From Nitrospinota bacterium (lineage in GTDB: Bacteria > JADFOP01), in contig JADFOP010000043.1 of NCBI GenBank assembly GCA_022562795.1, positions 1 to 17,423 of the forward strand: a stretch of 17,423 nucleotides of DNA. Direction: 5' to 3'. The position numbers and the translations under genes were made by a program. Below, one piece after another: positions 3,449 through 15,248 of this stretch. Every line of letters starts with the position of its first letter. Within the stretch, counting starts at the first letter, position 1. The notes beneath the pieces were generated by a model, which saw only the letters and a program-made list of their open reading frames with translations, did not search any database and was not told the DNA's origin.

Positions 3449-3850
3449 TCAGCCAAATGATCCAGTGGTGTTGAGCGAAGGCTTGCCTGGACGGTAGGAG
3501 GTGAGGCTGACGGAGAAGGCGGTCCCTGCGAGGCAGACCACCGCCATGCCTACTTGTCGTGCTGTTTCAATCAGTTCGTGGTGGGTCGATACCAGCTCCG
3601 CCGTCCGTTCCTCAACCCGGCGCTCCAAGTCTCGATCTCGAAGGTAGCCCAAGACCACTCTGGCCGTCTCGCCCACGTTGATCTCCACCTTCAGGAGGGC
3701 CTCTTCAAGGGGCTCCTCAACGTTGGCCAACTGCAGCACATCTCGGTTGATGCGTTTGACCGCCCAGTAGGAGACAAAACCGGTAAGGACCAGAATAAAG
3801 ATCAGGGCCCCAAAGATTAAGGCTAGCTTCCGTCCAATGGTTAATTTCAT
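3449..3850 (-). pseudogene. Deletion-scarred sensor kinase remnant
   Basis: A 133-residue reading frame starting at the ATG at 3850 (MKLTIGRKLAL), with one N-terminal membrane helix and the start of a four-helix MCP-like sensor (NVEEPLEEALLKVEINV). It then jumps to the coiled coil LERRVEERTAEL and to TARQVGMA. In a known kinase family this last segment leads into EVATGVLHNVGNVLNS, the phosphorylation site. Here GMA is followed instead by GTAFSVSL, which resembles the last strand of an ATPase domain. The second membrane helix, HAMP, phosphoacceptor His and nearly all of the ATPase domain are missing. It therefore cannot be a kinase, although a short membrane protein might still be made. It is 21 bp upstream of the intact kinase gene and probably co-transcribed with it. 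Confidence 0.7.
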
Positions 3851-3995
3851 CAGCTCTCTCTGCCAACCAAGGGCTTCAAAACCGCCCCCCTGGCCCCTAT
3901 TCGTACTTCTTGAGCAAACTGTTGGATATGGCCATCCAGTCCCAAGACCCTTAAACCCAATGAAAGCGGAGCAAGTCAAAGGGTTCCTTAATTAC

Positions 3996-4022: not shown

Positions 4023-4258
4023 GTTCCTTGGTAGCTTTTTCCCTGCCCTTTACACTGAGCAACGTGCAATAGCTCCCCCAGGGCCTCAGAGCAACCCTGG
4101 CCCGGCCCCGGCACGTCTAGCACCATCTCGAATGCCTTGTAGTCGGGGTTTGAAAAGTTGGCGATGTTGCTGACAATCTGGAGGTGCTTCTGGGCCCTCA
4201 GTTTGAGGTTCTGCTCCAATAAGTTCAGGCTCTTGAGGCCCTGCAAAATACTCTTCAC
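4019..4258 (-). pseudogene. flgB: Truncated flgB (flagellar rod protein)
   Basis: From a GTG at 4258 (AAGGGA about 10 bases upstream) the frame gives SLNLLEQNLKLRAQKHLQIV and then SNIANFSNPDYKAFEMVL. This is the N-terminal signature of FlgB, the proximal rod protein (RAQR..-ASNIAN-TPxYKA-F). The resemblance stops near residue 48 (about 4115). A low-complexity tail with no FlgB features follows to the stop at 4019, giving 79 residues against about 130 expected. The rod-forming C-terminal helix is missing, so it cannot be a working rod subunit. It lies downstream of the FleQ-like activator and the LolA-like gene, in the same direction. None of flgC, fliE or fliF follows it, although they normally do. 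Confidence 0.7.
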
Positions 4259-4478: not shown

Positions 4479-5150
4479 CTACCCCTTGCTGGCTAGGTGG
4501 TCCTTGTCCGAGGCTTTGGTGATTGAAGGGGGGTCCACACGGTAGTCTTCGAACGTCCAAACCTCATAGGCTTCGGAGGAGGTAGCGTCAAACCGCTCAA
4601 TCCGAGTCGGAAGCCACTGACGCCGGTCCACGACTATGATGACCCGCTGGCCTAAAGAGCGGTTGACCATTGTCAGGGCCCAAACGGGCCAATCAGCTGA
4701 ATCAACCACTCTTAGACCAGTAGCCTCCCAGCCAGGACCATCAAGCTGACCAATTATGGCCTCTAAGTGGGTCTCGTAGATCCTACGGTCGCCTCTTAAC
4801 TCGTCGGCGTCGATAAAAATGGGCATAGGCAGGTGAGGGAACTTCACTTTTACCATGTGGTCTGAGGCCGTATAGAGGGCCTCAACCCCCGCCTTCTCAC
4901 CTTCCAGGAAACGGATGCGGATGTTATGCGAAGGGCCCCACAATTCATAGCGGACTAAGCTCTGCTTGAGGCTACCCCCACTCTTTTTCGTGTGTCGGAT
5001 GGTCACAGCGTATCCTGTCAAGTCCTGGATTCTCTGCCGGAGCGTCGCCAAAACCTCCCCGGTGCTCGTCTTCATTGTCCCGGCATGAAGAGGAGTCGAG
5101 AGGAAAGCGACGAGGGAAAGTGCCAGGAGAGTCCTTGCAACGGTTCTCAT
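4479..5150 (-). CDS. Secreted LolA/DUF1571-like protein of unknown role
   Basis: A 223-residue protein beginning with a clear signal peptide (MRTVARTLLALSLVAFLS, cleavage likely after LHA). I choose the second ATG (5150) because GGAG lies six bases upstream; an ATG at 5162 would add four residues. The mature part looks like the curved beta-sheet fold of LolA/LolB-type or DUF1571 proteins: WGPSHNIRIRFLEGEK near the middle, then RVIIVVDRRQWLPTRIERFD and EVWTFEDYRVDPP near the end. The last two resemble the usual VD-x-x-x-xLP-x-RIE and dY/F-x-d-x-R-x-dP strands. It has no lipobox and no membrane anchor beyond the signal, so it is probably periplasmic. It starts 26 bp after the FleQ-like activator and is probably in its transcript. 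The fold assignment is by pattern only and the substrate is unknown. Confidence 0.75.
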   Translation of the reverse strand: MRTVARTLLALSLVAFLSTPLHAGTMKTSTGEVLATLRQRIQDLTGYAVTIRHTKKSGGSLKQSLVRYELWGPSHNIRIRFLEGEKAGVEALYTASDHMVKVKFPHLPMPIFIDADELRGDRRIYETHLEAIIGQLDGPGWEATGLRVVDSADWPVWALTMVNRSLGQRVIIVVDRRQWLPTRIERFDATSSEAYEVWTFEDYRVDPPSITKASDKDHLASKG

Positions 5151-5176
5151 GCTTCGCTCCATAGCTCTACACTCAA

Positions 5177-7299: not shown

Positions 7300-8016
7300 C
7301 TAGTCTCTCACCACTTTTTTCTCTTCCATGAGGACCGAGAGCCTCTGCCGGGCGGAGTGAAGGGCCTTTGAGTGAATCTGAGAGATCCGCGAGACGGTAA
7401 CCTCTAGGGCTTTGGAAATTACCTTCATGGAAAGCCCCTCGAAGTAGTAGAGGGACAGCACCAACCTCTCCCGTTGGGGCAGGTCCGCTATAGTCGTCGT
7501 AAGGTGCTTTCGCAGGTCCTCCTTTTCCAAATTATCAAACGGGTCAATGGCATGCTCATCCGCGATAGAGGCTATCCTTTCCGCTCCCTCTTCGTAGAGG
7601 CTCAGGGTGACGAGGTTATTGTTGTACCACAGGAGCTTGTCTACGTTTTCGAGCGTCTCGCCCGTAGCCTCGGCAAGCTCTTCTCGAGTTAAAGCACGGC
7701 ACTTTTGGGCCTCCAGTCGCCTCTCGACCTCCTTGAGCCTTTTGATTTTCTTCCTTTGGGAGGTAGGTACCCAATCTAACGACCTCAGGTAGTCCAGCAT
7801 CGCTCCCCAGACGCGAATTTCCGCGTAGGTCTTGAATTGAACATTGCGGCTAGGGTCATAACGCTCCAAGGCTTCCAAGAGCCCTATGACCCCGGTCTGG
7901 ACGAGGTCATCCAGCTCCACCGCTGGAGGCGTCCGCATTGCGAGTCGTCCTGCCATAAGCTTTATGATCGAGGCATATTCTGTTACCAGCTGCCTTTTCT
8001 GCTCGTCGGAAATCAT
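7300..8016 (-). CDS. fliA: RNA polymerase sigma factor FliA (sigma-28)
   Basis: A 238-residue sigma factor of normal FliA length. Region 2 (about 10-85) carries ELDDLVQTGVIGLLEALERY and FKTYAEIRVWGAMLDYLRSL followed by DWVPTSQRKK, the FliA core and -10 recognition signature. Region 3 spans about 90-150. Region 4 (about 180-232) has LPQRERLVLSLYYFEGLSM and a helix-turn-helix VTVSRISQIHSKAL. There is no frameshift or truncation. The ATG at 8016 is the first residue of the conserved domain. In flagellated bacteria this factor transcribes late genes (flagellin, motor, chemotaxis). Upstream is the fliF-flhF fossil; flhG, expected between flhF and fliA, is absent. A sigma-54-like element about 103 bp upstream could drive it independently. 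No anti-sigma flgM is visible. Confidence 0.95.
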   Translation of the reverse strand: MISDEQKRQLVTEYASIIKLMAGRLAMRTPPAVELDDLVQTGVIGLLEALERYDPSRNVQFKTYAEIRVWGAMLDYLRSLDWVPTSQRKKIKRLKEVERRLEAQKCRALTREELAEATGETLENVDKLLWYNNNLVTLSLYEEGAERIASIADEHAIDPFDNLEKEDLRKHLTTTIADLPQRERLVLSLYYFEGLSMKVISKALEVTVSRISQIHSKALHSARQRLSVLMEEKKVVRD

Positions 8017-8256
8017 TTATCTCATCAGCTCCCAATGTGGCGGGAGAAATGAGCGAGGCTCTTGAGGTATCCCATCGAGCAATAAACAGTCTGCCGCCAT
8101 GTGCTCCTACCTTTTGAAGCGACATTATTGCCTACCCCTGCGTCTTTTTTCCCACCTCACCCTGTCCTAGAAACACGAGGAATCCTTCACCTCCACCTTT
8201 CTCCGACAGGACGCGAGCCCAATCCCTCTGAGCCCGTCGCTAGTCCAACGCGTTTA
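8017..8256. other. Gap where flhG would be expected
   Basis: About 240 bp between the end of the flhF remnant and fliA. No P-loop or other FlhG/FleN motif is readable on the minus strand in any frame. It holds a possible sigma-54 promoter (8118-8133). Confidence 0.55.
8118..8133 (-). promoter_or_regulatory. Possible sigma-54 promoter for fliA
   Basis: The minus strand reads AGGCAATAATGTCGCT, keeping GG and GC exactly 10 bases apart and the CA after GG. It departs from consensus TGGCACG-N4-TTGCW at the first T, the CG and one T of TTGC. Start of transcription would be near 8107, about 90 bp before fliA. Confidence 0.35.
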
Positions 8257-8745
8257 TTAATAAGCATTTAGACCGCTCTCCCAATGCGCCTTTAGGATCA
8301 GGCCTGTTATCCGCTCCGGGGTCGCAACCTCCAAGTCCTCCGGAATCCGCTGGCCCGTCGAGACATACGAGATAGTACAGTTCAATTCCCATGCCAAATT
8401 CAGCATTGACCCAGGACGACTCCCTCGTCGACTTTGGTGAAAAGCACCCGATGGAAGGGGACTTCATAGAATCCCTTGGCCACGGCCTCCATTTCCTGCT
8501 CCCGGGTGGTCGCACTCAGCACCAGATGGACCTCCAAGGAGGGGATTCGGCGAAACGACCCTCGAAGGTGAGCTATGTGGTGCATGTCGCCTGGCCCCCT
8601 GCCCGGCGTATCTACGCAAATGAGGCTGGCGCGACCATATCGGTCGACGATGTCGGCTAGGTCTCGGTAATCGCGGGCCACCTCGACAGGGACGCCCAAG
8701 AGCTCCCCGTAGAGAGAAAGCTCCTCCACCGCACCCACCTGCTCC
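8257..8745 (-). pseudogene. flhF: 3' half of flhF, fused to fliF and frameshifted
   Basis: The reading frame joined to fliF continues as AVEELSLYGELLGVPVEV, CVDTPGRGPGD, VHLVLSATTREQE and VLFTKVDEG. This is the second half of the FlhF SRP-type GTPase: the segment after ADTYR, the DTAGR switch and the TKLDE base-recognition motif (DTPGR and TKVDE here). It stops at 8400, but another frame carries on without a gap: SMLNLAWELN, then STGQRIPEDLEVATPERI, ending at TAA 8257 as FlhF does. One missing base (probably one G in the run near 8411-8415) explains the shift. The N-terminal domain and P-loop are gone, so there is no GTPase. FlhF normally positions flagella at the cell pole. The single-base shift could be a sequencing error; the loss of the 5' half cannot. 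Confidence 0.85.
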
Positions 8746-9027
8746 AACCGCGTGAAGTCCATATCCACCGAAACACGTACTATGGCCATGTTAGGCCCCA
8801 GGACCCGCTCTACCATCTCATGAATCCGCTGCTCCATGGGCCCCTCGTACCGACGGTGATACTGGAGCTGGGAGGTGCTCAGTAGGGCCGCATCGTCACC
8901 CTTTTCACCACCCGACAGGGCCCCCCTGATGGCCGACCACCACCAGCCCGACCAAAACCGTGAGGGCAATACGCTGGCCCCAGGATAGGCCAGCAAAGAG
9001 ACGAGCAAATGGTTCAAGAAAGCCCAT
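8746..9027 (-). pseudogene. fliF: fliF remnant (MS-ring protein) with large deletions
   Basis: The ATG at 9027 overlaps the stop of the FlgR-like gene (TGATG), as in a real operon. It reads [20 protein letters not shown] and then a membrane helix ALTVLVGLVVVG, the N-terminus of FliF with its first TM segment; that frame hits a stop at 8905. One frame over, coding resumes as LSGGEKGDDAALLSTSQLQY and VLGPNMAIVRVSVDMDFT, which is the mid-protein FliF segment (LSxxQLEYQ..., VRVSxDLDF). Some two hundred residues between these two pieces are missing, and the whole C-terminal half, including the second TM and the FliG-binding tail, is gone. Past FTRLEQ the frame becomes FlhF. No MS-ring can be built from it. 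Confidence 0.85.
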
Positions 9028-10457
9028 CACACCCTGTCCACCTCCGTGTAGTAGGCATCACCACACGGGATTGTGATGCCCTCTTCCTCCCGATAGAGGC
9101 GAAGCTTGTTTCGAATGGTCCTTAGACTGACGTCTAGCATCTTTGCTGCCTTGGTCCGATTGCCCCTAGTCGCCTCCAAGGTCTTGAGAATCAGGCGCTT
9201 TTCCATCTCTCGGACCGAAAGACCCGCGGAAAGCTCAAGGTCCGACGGCTGCAAAGCCCAGGAGCCTTCTAGGTCCATGTCCGACGGGCCTATCTTGTCT
9301 CCGGCGCAGAAAATTACTGCCCTTATAATGGCGTTTTCCAGCTCCCGGATATTTCCGGGCCAGGGGTAGCCGAGCATCTTTTCCACACACTGAGGGGCGA
9401 AGCCCGTTATCTCCCTTCCCGCCAGCTGACTAGAGTCCTTGAGGAAGAACTCTGCAAGGAAGACGATGTCATCTTTCCGCTCCCTGAGCGGTGGAATAGT
9501 GAGGGTCACCACCTTGAGCCGGTAGTAGAGGTCCTCCCGGAAGCGGCCCTTTTCGACCTCCTTCCGGACGTCTTTGTTGGTGGTAGCGATAATCCGAACA
9601 TCGATGGAAATCGGCGACTTGCCCCCTATCCGATCTACCTCCCTTTCTTGAATAGCTCGAAGGAGCTTGGCCTGCAGGCTCGTCTGCATCTCGCTGATTT
9701 CGTCGAGCAGGAGGGTTCCTTTGTTGGCAAGCTCAAACTTCCCCTCTCTCTGAGCAACCGCGCCCGTAAAGGCCCCCTTCTCGTGTCCAAAAAGCTCGCT
9801 TTCCAGGAGGTTTTCGTTCAGGGCAGCGCAATTGACGGCCACGAAAGGCCCATTTTTTCGCCCGGAGTTGCGGTGGATTAAGCGGGCCAGGAGCTCCTTG
9901 CCAGTGCCACTCTCGCCCGTTATGAGGACCGTGGCGTCGGTTGCCGCGACTACTTGGGCCTTTTGCTCCACCTCCTTCGAGCGAGAGTCTTGGCAGAGAA
10001 ATTGAGCCCGCCTTTTGAGCTTTTTCCCGACCCCCCCAAGAGTGGTCACTGGCTGAGGGCGTCCCCGCTTCCGCCAAAAAATGCGCTTCACCACTTCTTC
10101 CAGCTTCTGGATGGGGAAGGGCTTGACGAGGAACTCATCGGCCCCTCGCTTCATAGCTTCAACGGCCTCCTCCACATCCCCGAAGGCAGTCACTACAACC
10201 ACGGCTGTATCGGGCGAGCGCTCCTTCACCTTACTCAGCACATCCATGCCTCCGGTCTTGGGCATGCGCAGGTCGGTGATCACAATCCCGAATTTTTGGC
10301 CGTCGAACTTCGCCAGGCCATCGGCTCCGTCTCGGGCCACGGTCACGTTGTAGCCCTTGTGTATCAGAGCCTGAGACAATGCGTGGCGCATCTGGTAGTC
10401 GTCGTCCACAACCAAGATGGAAGGGGGTTTCCCGTCAACGAGCGGATTTTCCGGCAT
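9027..10457 (-). CDS. FlgR/FlrC-like sigma-54-dependent activator
   Basis: A 476-residue NtrC-family response regulator. The receiver (about 12-125) has phosphoacceptor Asp62 (VITDLRMP), Thr in VVTAFG and Lys in LVKPF. The AAA+ domain has Walker A GESGTGKE (181-188), GAFTGA (228-233), Walker B LLLDE (about 249-253) and [12 protein letters not shown]. The C-terminal Fis helix-turn-helix lies in [20 protein letters not shown], preceded by [16 protein letters not shown]. This tail is characteristic of FlgR/FlrC/FleR, which switch on hook-basal-body genes with sigma-54. The start at 10457 (GAGGGGAAG upstream) overlaps the end of the kinase gene by 23 bp, and the stop overlaps the fliF start, so the original order was kinase-regulator-fliF. 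The gene is intact although its apparent target operon is wrecked. Confidence 0.92.
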
Positions 10458-11775
10458 AATTTGCTTCCCCTCGTTCAGATAGGTGACTCTGCAACTCCAA
10501 GACCCCCGGCAGCAGGACGGTAAATGAGGTGCCCCGGCCCGGGTCGCTCTCTACGTCTATGGAGCCCCGGTGGACTTCCACGATCTTATGGGCGATGGCG
10601 AGGCCTAATCCCGTGCCCTTCGGGCGGGTCGTGAAAAAGGGATGAAAGATACGCTCCAACAGCTTGGGGGCGATCCCGTGGCCGGTATCAGCGATCTGAA
10701 GCTCTACATCAACGGGGGAGTAAGACCCATCGGCGCCGTCGGGCTCGGCAATGCCAAGAGCCACAGGCCGCTGGCGAGCTGATACCTTGATTCGTCCTCC
10801 CTCGGGCATCGCCTGTAAGGCATTAACCAACAAGTTTAGCCAGAGCTGACTTAGAAGCTCTCTATCGCCCAAGGCGAACGGGAGCCCCTCATCGACCTCG
10901 AGCTCAGCTCCCACCGCCTGGCCCTCGAGCATTGGCCGTATGAAACCCAGGGTCTCTTCGAGGTGCTCCTTCACGTTGATGGGGACGAATTGCGAAGAAG
11001 GCTCCTGGTTGATGAGGAGCATATTGGAGACGATGAGCTTTAGGCTCCTAACACCCCTCAGAATGTGCTCCAGGTTCTCCCCCCAGGCAGGCTCATCGGG
11101 GGCCTCCTCGAGTAGCCTCTCTGTGAGGGACGCGTGAAGCTCTATGCTGCCCAGGGGATTTCTAATCTCGTGGGCCAAAGCGGCTACCATCTCGCCCATG
11201 GCCGAAAGCTGGTTGGCACGTTGTACCTGTTTCTCCAGGCGTTTCAGTCGGGTAACCTCCTCCAGGATCGCTACCGTGCCGTTGCGCCGCCGTGCCCCGT
11301 CGTACAGGGGACATAAGGAGACTAGAAGATACCGCCGGTTATGGCTCCCGGCTCGCCGGAAAGAGCACTCCGCGGGTGTGGACCAATCCCGCTCTTGCAA
11401 GTTGATGGGCCTTGGGCCCTCCCAGTTGTCCAACTTCTCGAAGACCCCGGTCAAGGGCTGGCTTAGAAGTCCCAAAGGATCGCATTCCCAAATTGCACCC
11501 ACAGCGCGGTTTACCGTGGTCACCACCCCATCCATATCGGCTACCAGGATCCCGCACGAGACGCTCTCTAGAATGTTTTTCAAGTGGTTCTTGATGCGGT
11601 CCTTCTCCTGGAGGTTGGTCTCCAGGTCAGCCGAAAGGGTGGAAATGTAGGACTTGAGGCTTCCGTAGGTGTATCGGAGCCGCTCAGTGGTGTCGTTAAA
11701 ACTAAACACGACATTGGCAGGGCGCTCCAGGTCCTCTGGAGGACCCTCCTGACCGACGCTTCGACTCTCGCTCAT
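10435..11775 (-). CDS. FlgS/FleS-like cytoplasmic PAS histidine kinase
   Basis: A 446-residue soluble kinase counted from the ATG at 11775. There is no membrane segment. An N-terminal helix lies at about 30-60 and a PAS domain at about 62-175 ([18 protein letters not shown]). The HisKA domain has His202 in [12 protein letters not shown]. The ATPase domain has Asn318 (LLVNALQAM), [10 protein letters not shown] and the lid [15 protein letters not shown]. The architecture and its position directly before an FlrC-type regulator match FlgS/FleS/FlrB, which phosphorylate that regulator during flagellar assembly. A longer reading from a TTG at 11877 is possible, but that extension is low-complexity and would begin almost on the sigma-54-like promoter's start point. 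A sigma-54-like promoter lies about 110 bp upstream. Confidence 0.9.
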
Positions 11776-11885
11776 CTTGTAAGCACCGCCCCTGCCACTG
11801 TTCCTTCCTCTCGAGGGCTCCAGGGTATTCGGCAGCCACCTTGGGCTCATAGCGCCTAACGCTCCGTACTGACTCAATGGAACCG

Positions 11886-11901
11886 TGCAAGAATACTGCC
11901 A
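11886..11901 (-). promoter_or_regulatory. Probable sigma-54 promoter of the FlgS/FlgR operon
   Basis: The minus strand reads TGGCAGTATTCTTGCA: TGGCA, then TTGCA, with GG and GC exactly 10 bases apart. Against TGGCACG-N4-TTGCW only the C and G after TGGCA differ. Transcription would start near 11874, about 100 bp before the kinase ATG, as expected for a FleQ-activated second-tier operon. Confidence 0.6.
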
Positions 11902-12229
11902 TGTTCCGGCAAATAGTTCCTGCCAATCAATAATAGGAGTGTTTTCAAAGAGTTGAGAAACTACAGGAGGGGACTGGAGAGGTTAAATATGCACTTCGCC
12001 CTGATGTCGTTCGTCGAAATTCCGTCGCAGGGTCAGTGTCCTTGACACTATGACGTTCGGATCACCCAGGCATTCGGGGCGCCTTTTCCCAAAGGAGGGA
12101 ACGAATTTTCCTGATGCGCTGTTGGCCTACCGGGCGACTATCCTAGATTGTGAGAAGATAGATGGTGTTTGGGAAGTAAATATGAGCAGTGAAGTATTGC
12201 TTCAAAGGCCAGTCCAGGGCGCGGTAAGG
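11902..12229. other. Intergenic stretch between the two kinase genes
   Basis: About 330 bp with no recognisable coding frame on either strand. It would hold activator sites for the promoter at 11886-11901, and it contains the inverted repeat at 12035-12049. No terminator for the GAF kinase gene is obvious. Confidence 0.5.
12035..12049. repeat. Perfect 6-bp inverted repeat, operator-like
   Basis: AGTGTC-CTT-GACACT is a perfect palindrome with a 3-base centre. It extends to GTCA/TGAC if a two-base bulge is allowed. It lies about 140 bp upstream of the sigma-54-like promoter at 11886, a normal distance for an enhancer site. Confidence 0.4.
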
Positions 12230-13474
12230 TTATACGCCTTGGGCGGCCTTGGGGAGGGAGATGGTCACGGTCGTGCCCCGGCCCACAGCGCTCTCGACCT
12301 CCACATCACCCTGCTGCGATTTAATAAGATTGTGTGTCATTGCCATGCCCATACCAAACCCATCGTCTCCTTTGGTGGTGAAGAAGGGCTCAAAAATCCT
12401 GGAGCGAACTTCCTGGGACATACCAACACCGGTGTCGCTGACGGCAATGTGAACCGTTCCGCTCCCCTCCCATGTTCGAATGGTCAGCTTTCCACCTTTA
12501 GGCATTGCCTGGATGGAGTTCAAAACGACGTTGATCAGGGCCTCCCTTAGCAGGGCCGCATCGGCCAAGATCGGCCTTTCCAACTTCAAGTCCTTTTGAA
12601 TCTCGATGGATATTCCTTTCGCCAGGACCTCTTTGAATTTGACCCGGAGCATCTCAAGCACGTCCTCTGCCAACTCGTTCAGGTCCACCGGTGTGACCCG
12701 AGGACCAGCCGCCGTCCTAGAGGTAAGTTCATGTAGACGCCTTACGGTCTCGGTCGCGTCCATGACCGTCCGCTCCATGACATCGAGGATACGAAAAGCC
12801 TCCTTGTCGGATTGATCTAGGCGAGGGCTGAGCAGATAGAGGTTTCCAAGGATAAGGCCCAAGAAGTTGTTGAAGTCGTGCGTTTTTCCAATGGCCCTCT
12901 TTGCGAGCACCTCAAACGTTTCGGTCAGGAGGAGCTTCTCCCGGGCCTCGTTCAACCCCTGCCTGGTCTGGTAAAGCTCCCAGGCCGTGGCCAGATGCCG
13001 GGCGAAAATACCCAGGATGGCGTCATCCCACGAGGTGAACCTCTCGGGGCTTGGGCTTAAAAGGACAAATGCCCCCACCGACCGCCCATCCACTACCAAG
13101 GGGGCTCCAAGAAGGGCTCTATGAGCAGTGACCTCGAGGAGAGTTCGATTGCCCCAACGAGGCTCTCGAGAAAGGTCCCGAACAACAAGGGGCCTCCCGC
13201 GACGCATAAGCTCTTTTACGAAAGGCTCGTCAGCCCTGAGCACCTCCTCGACTCTATTGCGGTCCGCTCCGGAGACTCCAGCAAGCTGGAGCTGCCCTGA
13301 GACCTCATCCACGCTCCACATTAGCACGAGCGAAACGCCCCAGATACGATTAGCCACATCGGCCAGGGCCGCTGTGATTGTATCGGGCTCACCCCCTAGG
13401 TCTGACTGGCGAAGGAACGAGACCATGGAGTTCAACATCCTCGCCCTTTTCCCTCTATCGCGACGCCGCGCCAT
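12230..13474 (-). CDS. GAF-domain soluble histidine kinase
   Basis: A 414-residue cytoplasmic kinase: GAF domain at about 20-170 (HRALLGAPLVVDGRSVGAFV is its central strand region), a helical linker, then HisKA with His199 in GKTHDFNNFLGLILGN. The ATPase domain has Asn319 (NVVLNSIQAM), VSDTGVGMS and lid residues DDGFGMGMAM. The box around His is slightly unusual (THDFNN in place of the common AHDFNN), and the lid is GFGMGMA rather than GTGLGLA, but all catalytic positions are filled. The ATG is preceded by AAGGAGG four bases upstream. The gene follows the NtrC-type activator at 13731, the most likely partner by position. The gap carries a sigma-54-like promoter and a hairpin, so it can also be expressed separately. 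The GAF ligand is unknown. Confidence 0.9.
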   Translation of the reverse strand: MARRRDRGKRARMLNSMVSFLRQSDLGGEPDTITAALADVANRIWGVSLVLMWSVDEVSGQLQLAGVSGADRNRVEEVLRADEPFVKELMRRGRPLVVRDLSREPRWGNRTLLEVTAHRALLGAPLVVDGRSVGAFVLLSPSPERFTSWDDAILGIFARHLATAWELYQTRQGLNEAREKLLLTETFEVLAKRAIGKTHDFNNFLGLILGNLYLLSPRLDQSDKEAFRILDVMERTVMDATETVRRLHELTSRTAAGPRVTPVDLNELAEDVLEMLRVKFKEVLAKGISIEIQKDLKLERPILADAALLREALINVVLNSIQAMPKGGKLTIRTWEGSGTVHIAVSDTGVGMSQEVRSRIFEPFFTTKGDDGFGMGMAMTHNLIKSQQGDVEVESAVGRGTTVTISLPKAAQGV

Positions 13475-13503
13475 AAGGCCTCCTTGCTCTTCCCGCCGCT
13501 TCC

Positions 13504-13536
13504 AAAACTAACCCCCCCTCCCTGGGGGTTTTAGTT
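13504..13536 (-). terminator. GC-rich hairpin with U-rich flank (terminator or leader attenuator)
   Basis: On the minus strand, AACTAAAACCCCC, a short loop, then GGGGGGTTAGTTTT form a stem of at least five G-C pairs that extends through the A/T arms. The T-rich flank would act as a weak intrinsic terminator. It could end the NtrC transcript (stop at 13731). However, it lies downstream of the sigma-54-like promoter, so it would also sit in the GAF kinase leader. Confidence 0.5.
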
Positions 13537-13578
13537 CCCTCGGCCACATCTTTGGGACCACCCCACTTCCGAAAGATA

Positions 13579-13594
13579 AGCAAAATTCGTTCCA
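13579..13594 (-). promoter_or_regulatory. Probable sigma-54 promoter of the GAF kinase
   Basis: The minus strand reads TGGAACGAATTTTGCT, matching TGGCACG-N4-TTGCW at all fixed positions but one (C to A), with GG and GC 10 bases apart. Transcription would start near 13568, about 94 bp before the ATG at 13474. The gene directly upstream encodes a sigma-54 activator, an obvious candidate regulator. Confidence 0.62.
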
Positions 13595-13730
13595 GGGCGT
13601 GGCAGCAAACGTTACCCTGCTGGGGGGGCAGCCCTAAAGGTCTATTAACAAACGCGGTGCGGGATGCAGGATATTTGGCAAGACCCCGGAGCCGGGGGCA
13701 TGGAGGCAGGAGGTGCGTCTTTTAGTGGTG

Positions 13731-15248
13731 TTACTCCGACAAAGGGATAGAAGTCGAGGGGTGCTTCGAATGGCCTAACTCATTAGAACCAAGGGGCATA
13801 TCGTCACTGCGTCCGGGGGGACCCACATCGGTAAAATCCGTGCGACTTAGTGTGGCTTTCTTCATGATTCGCTGGAATGTGCGTCTTTCCATCCCTGAAG
13901 CGCTCGCCGCCTTGGAGACGTTCCCCCCGTGTTTTTCCAGCTGGGCCTTAACGTAATTATACTGGAACTTATCCAAGAAAAGCCGCTTGGCCTCCTTGTA
14001 AGTATGACCTGACGAATCCAAAGTGGAGACCAAGAGACTGGGTGAGGGTGTCGATTTAATGAACTTGGGTGAGAGGTCATCCACGGTTATCTCATCTTTC
14101 GGGCATAAGGCCACGATTCGGGCCACCTCATTCTCGAGCTCCCGGACGTTTCCTGGCCAAGGATGCTCCATCATCGCCTCGACGGCTGTCGCGGTGAAGA
14201 CCTTGGAGGGTGTGTTTAGCTCCGAAGCTGCTTTGGTCAGAAAATTTTGGATTAGCAACGGAATGTCTTCGGTCCGTTCCCTCAGCGGAGGCAAGTGAAT
14301 GGGAATGACATGGAGACGGTAGAAGAGGTCGGACCTAAACTTCCCTTCCTCGACCATTTCGGCCAAAGGCTGATTCGTTGCAGCAACAACCCTGAGGTCT
14401 ACTTTAACCGGGCGGGTGTCGCCAACCCTACGGACTTCACCTAGCTGCAAGGCCCTCAGGAGCTTGGGCTGCAAGGATATATCCATGTCGCCGATCTCGT
14501 CGAAGAAGACCGTTCCGCCATCTGCAACCTCCAGCAGACCTCTCTTGGACTGGTACGCGCCGGTAAAGGCCCCCTTGACATATCCGAAAAGCTCGCTGGT
14601 CAGGAGGGTTCCAGAAAGAGCACTACAGTCTACAACGACAAGGGGCTTGGTGTGCCTGGCGCTTAAGTCGTGGATGGCCGCAGCCACCAGCTCCTTGCCT
14701 GTCCCGGTCTCGCCTTCTATAAGCACAGTGGCGTCGGATCGCGCGGCGCGCTGGATGGTCTTAAAGACCTCCTGCATCTCGGGGCTTTTACCTATGATTT
14801 GATTGAGGGTCCAGGGCCCTTCGATCCTGCTCCACAGGTATTCGTTTTCCCTCTGGAGCTGCAAGCTCTCGGCACCCCTCCGGATTACGTGGAGAAGCTC
14901 CTCGTCGATCAATGGTTTGGTTATGTAATCATAAGCCCCAAGCTTTAGGGACCTTATGGCCGAGCTGGCGTCATTGAGAGCGGTCACCATGATGACGAGG
15001 GGTTGGCCCAGACTATCTTTAATGGTTTCCAGAAGCTTGAACCCATCGACGTCGGGCATCCTGATATCGGAGATTAAGATGTCTATCGAATTTGAATTGA
15101 GCTTCTTAAGGGCCTCCTTGCCGCCCCTGGCGGTGGTGACGTTCAGGTACGGTTCCCTCTCTACGATAGTCTTGATGAGGTCAACCATCAATGGCTCATC
15201 GTCTACGACCAAAACGTTGAACCTGTCCGAGAGGGAAACCTTTTCCAT
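13731..15248 (-). CDS. NtrC-family sigma-54-dependent response regulator
   Basis: A 505-residue activator. The receiver (about 9-125) has acidic VVDDE, phosphoacceptor Asp61 (LISDIRMP), Thr in IMVTAL and Lys in YITKP. The AAA+ domain has Walker A GETGTGKE (179-186), sigma-54 loop GAFTGA (226-231, inside FGYVKGAFTGA, where [11 protein letters not shown] is more usual), Walker B VFFDEIGD and HPWPGNVRELEN. The Fis-type helix-turn-helix is at about 441-467 (GGNVSKAASASGMERRTFQR). A hydrophilic tail of about 38 residues follows that most relatives lack. I start at the third in-frame ATG (15248) because AAAGGA lies six bases upstream; ATGs at 15266 and 15254 are also in frame. Its tail is not of the FlgR or FleQ type, so a link to flagella is not supported. 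Its likely partner is the GAF kinase that follows. Confidence 0.9.
   Translation of the reverse strand: MEKVSLSDRFNVLVVDDEPLMVDLIKTIVEREPYLNVTTARGGKEALKKLNSNSIDILISDIRMPDVDGFKLLETIKDSLGQPLVIMVTALNDASSAIRSLKLGAYDYITKPLIDEELLHVIRRGAESLQLQRENEYLWSRIEGPWTLNQIIGKSPEMQEVFKTIQRAARSDATVLIEGETGTGKELVAAAIHDLSARHTKPLVVVDCSALSGTLLTSELFGYVKGAFTGAYQSKRGLLEVADGGTVFFDEIGDMDISLQPKLLRALQLGEVRRVGDTRPVKVDLRVVAATNQPLAEMVEEGKFRSDLFYRLHVIPIHLPPLRERTEDIPLLIQNFLTKAASELNTPSKVFTATAVEAMMEHPWPGNVRELENEVARIVALCPKDEITVDDLSPKFIKSTPSPSLLVSTLDSSGHTYKEAKRLFLDKFQYNYVKAQLEKHGGNVSKAASASGMERRTFQRIMKKATLSRTDFTDVGPPGRSDDMPLGSNELGHSKHPSTSIPLSE

Follow-up and report, generated by a model that had tools for sequence, protein, structure and literature searches.

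Remnants of fliF and flhF between intact flgR and fliA form a probable deletion scar of stepwise flagellar loss in a Nitrospinota genome

Between two intact flagellar regulatory genes, flgR and fliA, the Nitrospinota genome studied here carries only pieces of fliF and flhF, and we consider it highly likely that the flagellum was lost step by step and that this locus is a resulting deletion scar. The window, the whole stretch of DNA that was analysed, is a complete contig (G000:C43, 17,423 bases) from a MAG of 2.15 Mb in 84 contigs (G000; 97.1% complete, 0.94% contaminated), of which up to 3% may be missing. We compared it with a second species of the same genus (G001; 85% complete) and, as main reference, with a sister genome from the same class but a different family (G002), whose flagellar gene names we assigned from ORF sequences and gene order. 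The scar and all related genes lie on the minus strand of the window:

10435..11877, minus strand: intact histidine kinase gene (PAS-HisKA-HATPase; Pfam HisKA and HATPase_c), partner of FlgR
9027..10457, minus strand: intact FlgR-type sigma-54 activator gene (receiver, AAA+ and Fis domains), upstream edge of the scar
8932..9027, minus strand: fliF codons 1-32, encoding the N-terminus and first membrane span, aligned without gaps to G002 FliF 12-37
8400..9017, minus strand: 205-aa open frame across the mid-fliF/flhF join, starting at a TTG that lies within the fliF N-terminal piece but in a different frame
8739..8882, minus strand: mid-fliF fragment (FliF 232-279), in a frame different from that of the N-terminal piece (tblastn, NCBIfam fliF)
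8409..8741, minus strand: flhF GTPase domain, second half only (P-loop half missing), continuing the mid-fliF frame
8293..8412, minus strand: flhF C-terminus, after a frameshift
8017..8256, minus strand: gap between flhF and fliA where relatives carry flhG, with no flhG remnant
7300..8016, minus strand: intact fliA (sigma-28) gene (NCBIfam FliA_WhiG, Pfam), downstream edge of the scar
4115..4234, minus strand: flgB stub covering FlgB residues 15-54, the window's second scar

Three-frame translation of 9120-8120 yielded four pieces. At 9027 the FlgR stop codon, TGA, and the fliF ATG overlap by one base, the final A of the former being the first base of the latter; frame 0 opens there with the 32-residue fliF start and resumes later with GSMLNLAWELNCTISYVSTGQRIPEDLEVATPERITGLIL, while frame 1 carries LLSTSQLQYHRRYEGPMEQRIHEMVERVLGPNMAIVRVSVDMDFTRLEQ, running unbroken into VGAVEELSLYGELLGVPVEVARDYRDLADIV...VLFTKVDEGVVLG. 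Residues 7-32 of the N-terminal piece aligned with G002 FliF 12-37 at a score of 51, which was reached in 0 of 5000 shuffles using the first 120 residues and in 1 of 2000 using the whole protein. The mid-FliF fragment was 40% identical to its counterpart in G002 (E 4e-8, tblastn against the window alone); searched genome-wide, the match had an E value of 1.7e-5 and was placed at 8736-8918, with no other FliF in G000. The fragment also matched positions 229-280 of the NCBIfam fliF model (E 2.5e-4). The FlhF segment that follows was 37% identical to G002 FlhF (tblastn, E 1e-22), covered positions 42-157 of the 196 in the Pfam SRP54 profile and matched the PDB FlhF structure 2px0 (E 8e-14). Past a frameshift near 8409-8412, the FlhF C-terminus was recovered by tblastn (E 9e-11; 0 of 2000 shuffles) in an alignment spanning 8460-8293, the homologous part being 8412-8293. 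The initial annotation, made from the letters alone, had proposed just this succession: a FliF start and TM1 from an ATG overlapping the flgR stop, a mid-FliF segment after a frame change, the second half of FlhF in that same frame and, after one more frameshift, the FlhF C-terminus. Every segment aligned to the family it had been given.

The pieces are homologous to parts of FliF (MS ring) and FlhF (SRP-type GTPase), but they are incomplete and frame-broken, and neither can work as its parent protein. FliF survives only as about codons 1-32 and 225-279, in different frames, and no single frame holds two membrane spans and the ring-building domains. The FlhF remnant lacks a complete NG domain with its P-loop (G1), the SRP54 match starting only at position 42, and its C-terminal part lies in another frame. 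Junction 1, between the fliF N-terminus and mid-fliF, falls near 8905-8931. Junction 2 is tight, with fliF up to 8739 and flhF from 8741. Repeat-mediated deletion at the scar was considered and rejected: self-comparison of the window returned only kinase and NtrC paralogy and no junction repeats.

Relatives preserve the gene order that the scar interrupts. In G002, one contig carries kinase-flgR-flgB-flgC-fliE-fliF-fliG-fliH-fliI, a second fliQ-fliR-flhB-flhA and a third flhF-flhG-fliA. The order fliQ-fliR-flhB-flhA-flhF-flhG-fliA recurs, whole or in part, in many relatives, including Nitrospirae and Nitrospinota MAGs, and in G020 fliI and flhF lie ~21 kb apart on a single contig. The earlier claim that fliF and flhF are far apart in related genomes is borne out, and at 8739/8741 truncated flagellar genes adjoin each other where relatives hold a long cluster. 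G002 has flgB-flgC-fliE between flgR and fliF; in the window only the flgB stub is left, ~4 kb downstream of the scar. DNA comparison of the scar locus with G001 gave matches to paralogous kinase and regulator genes only.

Because fliF and flhF are so distant in relatives, at least two deletions are needed, the minimum that the initial annotation had set; the missing flhG adds a third, and there is one frameshift besides. All three frames of 8017-8256 matched G002 FlhG no better than shuffles did. We propose an ancestral operon ordered kinase-flgR-[flgB-flgC-fliE]-fliF-fliG-fliH-fliI ... fliQ-fliR-flhB-flhA-flhF-flhG-fliA, whose body would have disappeared in three or more deletions. Of these, one would have fallen within fliF (about codons 38-225), another, probably of 10-20 kb, would have run from mid-fliF to mid-flhF, and another would have taken out flhG. 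A frameshift would have broken what remained of flhF.

The genes on either side of the scar are intact. The kinase is 38% identical to the kinase beside flgR in G002 (E 1e-53), and FlgR is 48% identical to its G002 counterpart (E 8e-148). FliA scored 230.7 bits against NCBIfam FliA_WhiG (TIGR02479; cut-off 189.6), has Pfam sigma regions 2, 3 and 4, is 43% identical to G002 FliA and belongs to the FliA/WhiG family. The window as a whole is rich in two-component genes: the scar is surrounded by at least four histidine kinases, three NtrC-type activators and several receivers that stand alone.

The body of the operon is missing not only from the locus. FlhA was not found in G000 or G001 and is present in G002. 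G000 has no FliF, FliG, FlhB or FliR besides the scar, no rod or hook protein of the Flg_bb_rod family, and no FlgC, FliE, FlgI or FliW among the proteins searched for; as assembled, this 97.1%-complete genome lacks the export gate, the MS ring, FliG and the rod. The idea that the ends of the operon were kept and its body lost therefore held, and no intact fliF...flhF, which would have spoken for a collapsed assembly, turned up elsewhere in G000. In G001, neither a flagellin nor fliA was found.

Further scars are present. The flgB stub was detected by tblastn with G002 FlgB (42% identity, E 5e-7). On contig C12, flgK retains only its last 150 codons, the sequence upstream of them containing stops, and a cheA-like gene keeps its Hpt and dimerisation domains and has no ATPase domain. 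The same contig encodes a flagellin of 373 aa and an FlgL of 295 aa, both full length with complete N and C domains. They lie at 8402-14026 of G000:C12:33001-48479 (L060), together with a probable flaG and the C-terminal flgK, in a genome with no detectable export gate.

Several other features of the window were recorded. A GAF-HATPase kinase gene occurs in two copies that are 81.5% identical, neither of them at the fliF-flhF junction. The copy at window 12243-13539 sits immediately upstream of the flgR kinase, and the copy at L060:14180-15479 borders the truncated flgK where contig C12 ends. A 176-aa frame at 3449-3979, matched to no family, looks from its sequence like the beginning of a sensor kinase fused to a late coiled-coil segment, as if a further internal deletion had occurred; smc has a comparable short frame next to it, at L112:1628-1933. 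The 227-aa product of 4479-5162, a gene flanked by an NtrC-type activator and the flgB stub, begins with what resembles a signal peptide and gave no confident match in Pfam.

Full-length flagellin and flgL genes are odd for an old loss. One rival explanation is that flgR, fliA, flagellin and flgL now serve some different function, as a reduced but working regulon. The intact kinase, FlgR and FliA and the complete domains of flagellin and FlgL would suit such a system, as would sigma-54-like sites upstream of the kinase gene and of a TPR gene near flgL (equalled in 1.7% and 0.7% of shuffles, respectively). However, no export gate was found, making the exit of flagellin by the known route impossible, and flgK beside flgL is broken. 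Nor did any sigma-28-like promoter upstream of fliC, flgL or fliA rise above shuffles, in a search that used the E. coli consensus only. We regard a retained partial system as improbable.

Less probable still is that the organism has the whole operon and that a misassembly brought its two ends together, the operon body being either not assembled or not binned. G000 is a fragmented MAG of 84 contigs, as this explanation would want, but it would have to account for the absence of at least twelve flagellar proteins at 97% completeness, and for a congener that is also without FlhA, fliA and flagellin. Frameshifts and separate scars on two contigs are, moreover, unlike the product of one misjoin. 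When an assembly collapses or is misjoined, the genes lost from the locus would usually turn up on other contigs; no such genes were found, and there are more scars, so that real, staged flagellar loss is the most likely explanation.

Very doubtful, finally, is a FliF-FlhF fusion protein that is expressed from the 205-aa frame and has its own function: the two fragments meet in frame (in NCBIfam matches, fliF ends at residue 92 and FlhF begins at residue 93), the frame is open from 9017 to 8400 and its GC by codon position (0.72/0.38/0.72) is similar to that of the surrounding genes, but the P-loop half of FlhF is gone, its C-terminus is severed by the frameshift, no FliF membrane span is in frame and no fused homologue was found in the class, for which reasons we think, from the sequence, that it is not a working protein.

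Under staged flagellar loss, the picture is of a genome caught partway through the process. We infer that the deletions are present in the living population and were not made by assembly, and that the cell has no flagellum; fliA, flgR, fliC and flgL would survive because decay is incomplete.

Apart from the scar, Ffh, FtsY and the SRP RNA were apparently missing from both species of the genus, and all three are present in G002. In G000, PF00448 recovered the flhF scar and a weak ABC transporter ATPase match only, with no Ffh and no FtsY. TIGR00959 found Ffh, FtsY and FlhF in G002 and nothing in G000 or G001, and RF00169 detected an SRP RNA in G002 only. Gene neighbourhoods point the same way. 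G002:C114 (L080) has the order rpe-ffh-rpsP-KH-rimM-trmD; in G000:C16 (L110:1940-3029) and G001:C729 (L111:2502-3609) the order is rpe-rpsP-KH-rimM-trmD, ffh being cleanly absent within assembled contigs, with 142 bases between rpe and rpsP in G000 and 175 in G001. Likewise, ftsY follows smc in G002 and does not follow it in G000 or G001. Leptospira is reported to lack SRP, and the same paper names Dehalococcoides and, apparently, SAR86 as further cases (PMC4758666).

Should the absence prove real, the loss of SRP would predate the split between the two species; with flagellin and FlgL remaining full length in one of these species, it would also have preceded the end of flagellar loss. A bolder reading, which we hold to be possible but unlikely, is that the genus lost every SRP-type GTPase (Ffh, FtsY and FlhF) along with the SRP RNA, SRP going first, in the common ancestor, and the flagellum decaying afterwards, so that the scar would mark the second step. 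The membrane-embedded base of the flagellum and its FlhF-directed placement would, on that reading, have relied on the SRP-type GTPase family. A causal link between the two losses is speculation. The apparent absence of SRP may matter more than the scar.

Scars of this type are already known, and the fliF-flhF scar is a new example. Flagellar gene loss is common, as a survey of host-associated Pseudomonadota illustrates (PMC13063649), and there is the precedent of Flag-2, which together place our scar within a known type. The survey likewise describes stepwise, incomplete loss of flagellar genes, but in another phylum with another lifestyle, and it scored presence and absence only, which by its own account leaves it blind to the difference between complete and degenerate systems. 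Of known cases the nearest is the Flag-2 scar of E. coli K-12 and B, as PMC3032704 describes it after Ren et al. 2005: all that is left are terminal remnants, the pseudogenes fhiA (= lfhA) and mbhA (= lafU). As that account has it, the body of the cluster was lost and truncated terminal genes remain at the site, as here. In that case the strain keeps a second flagellar set (Flag-1), whereas no other export gate was found in G000; and in G000, unlike the Flag-2 scar as described there, the pieces of fliF and flhF meet in a single reading frame and intact regulators flank the scar. What is unusual here is the tight in-frame join of fliF to flhF together with the survival of both regulatory ends.

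For annotation, the locus counsels caution: flagellin and fliA hits in G000 are not proof of motility, and the 205-aa frame could be mislabelled as FlhF. For the biology of flagellar decay, the scar shows the ordered loss of a large machine, in which the operon body, the rod and the export gate are gone while sigma-28, the FlgR two-component pair, flagellin and FlgL can still be read in the genome. With the apparent absence of SRP, the genus may also add a lineage for studying what takes the place of SRP.
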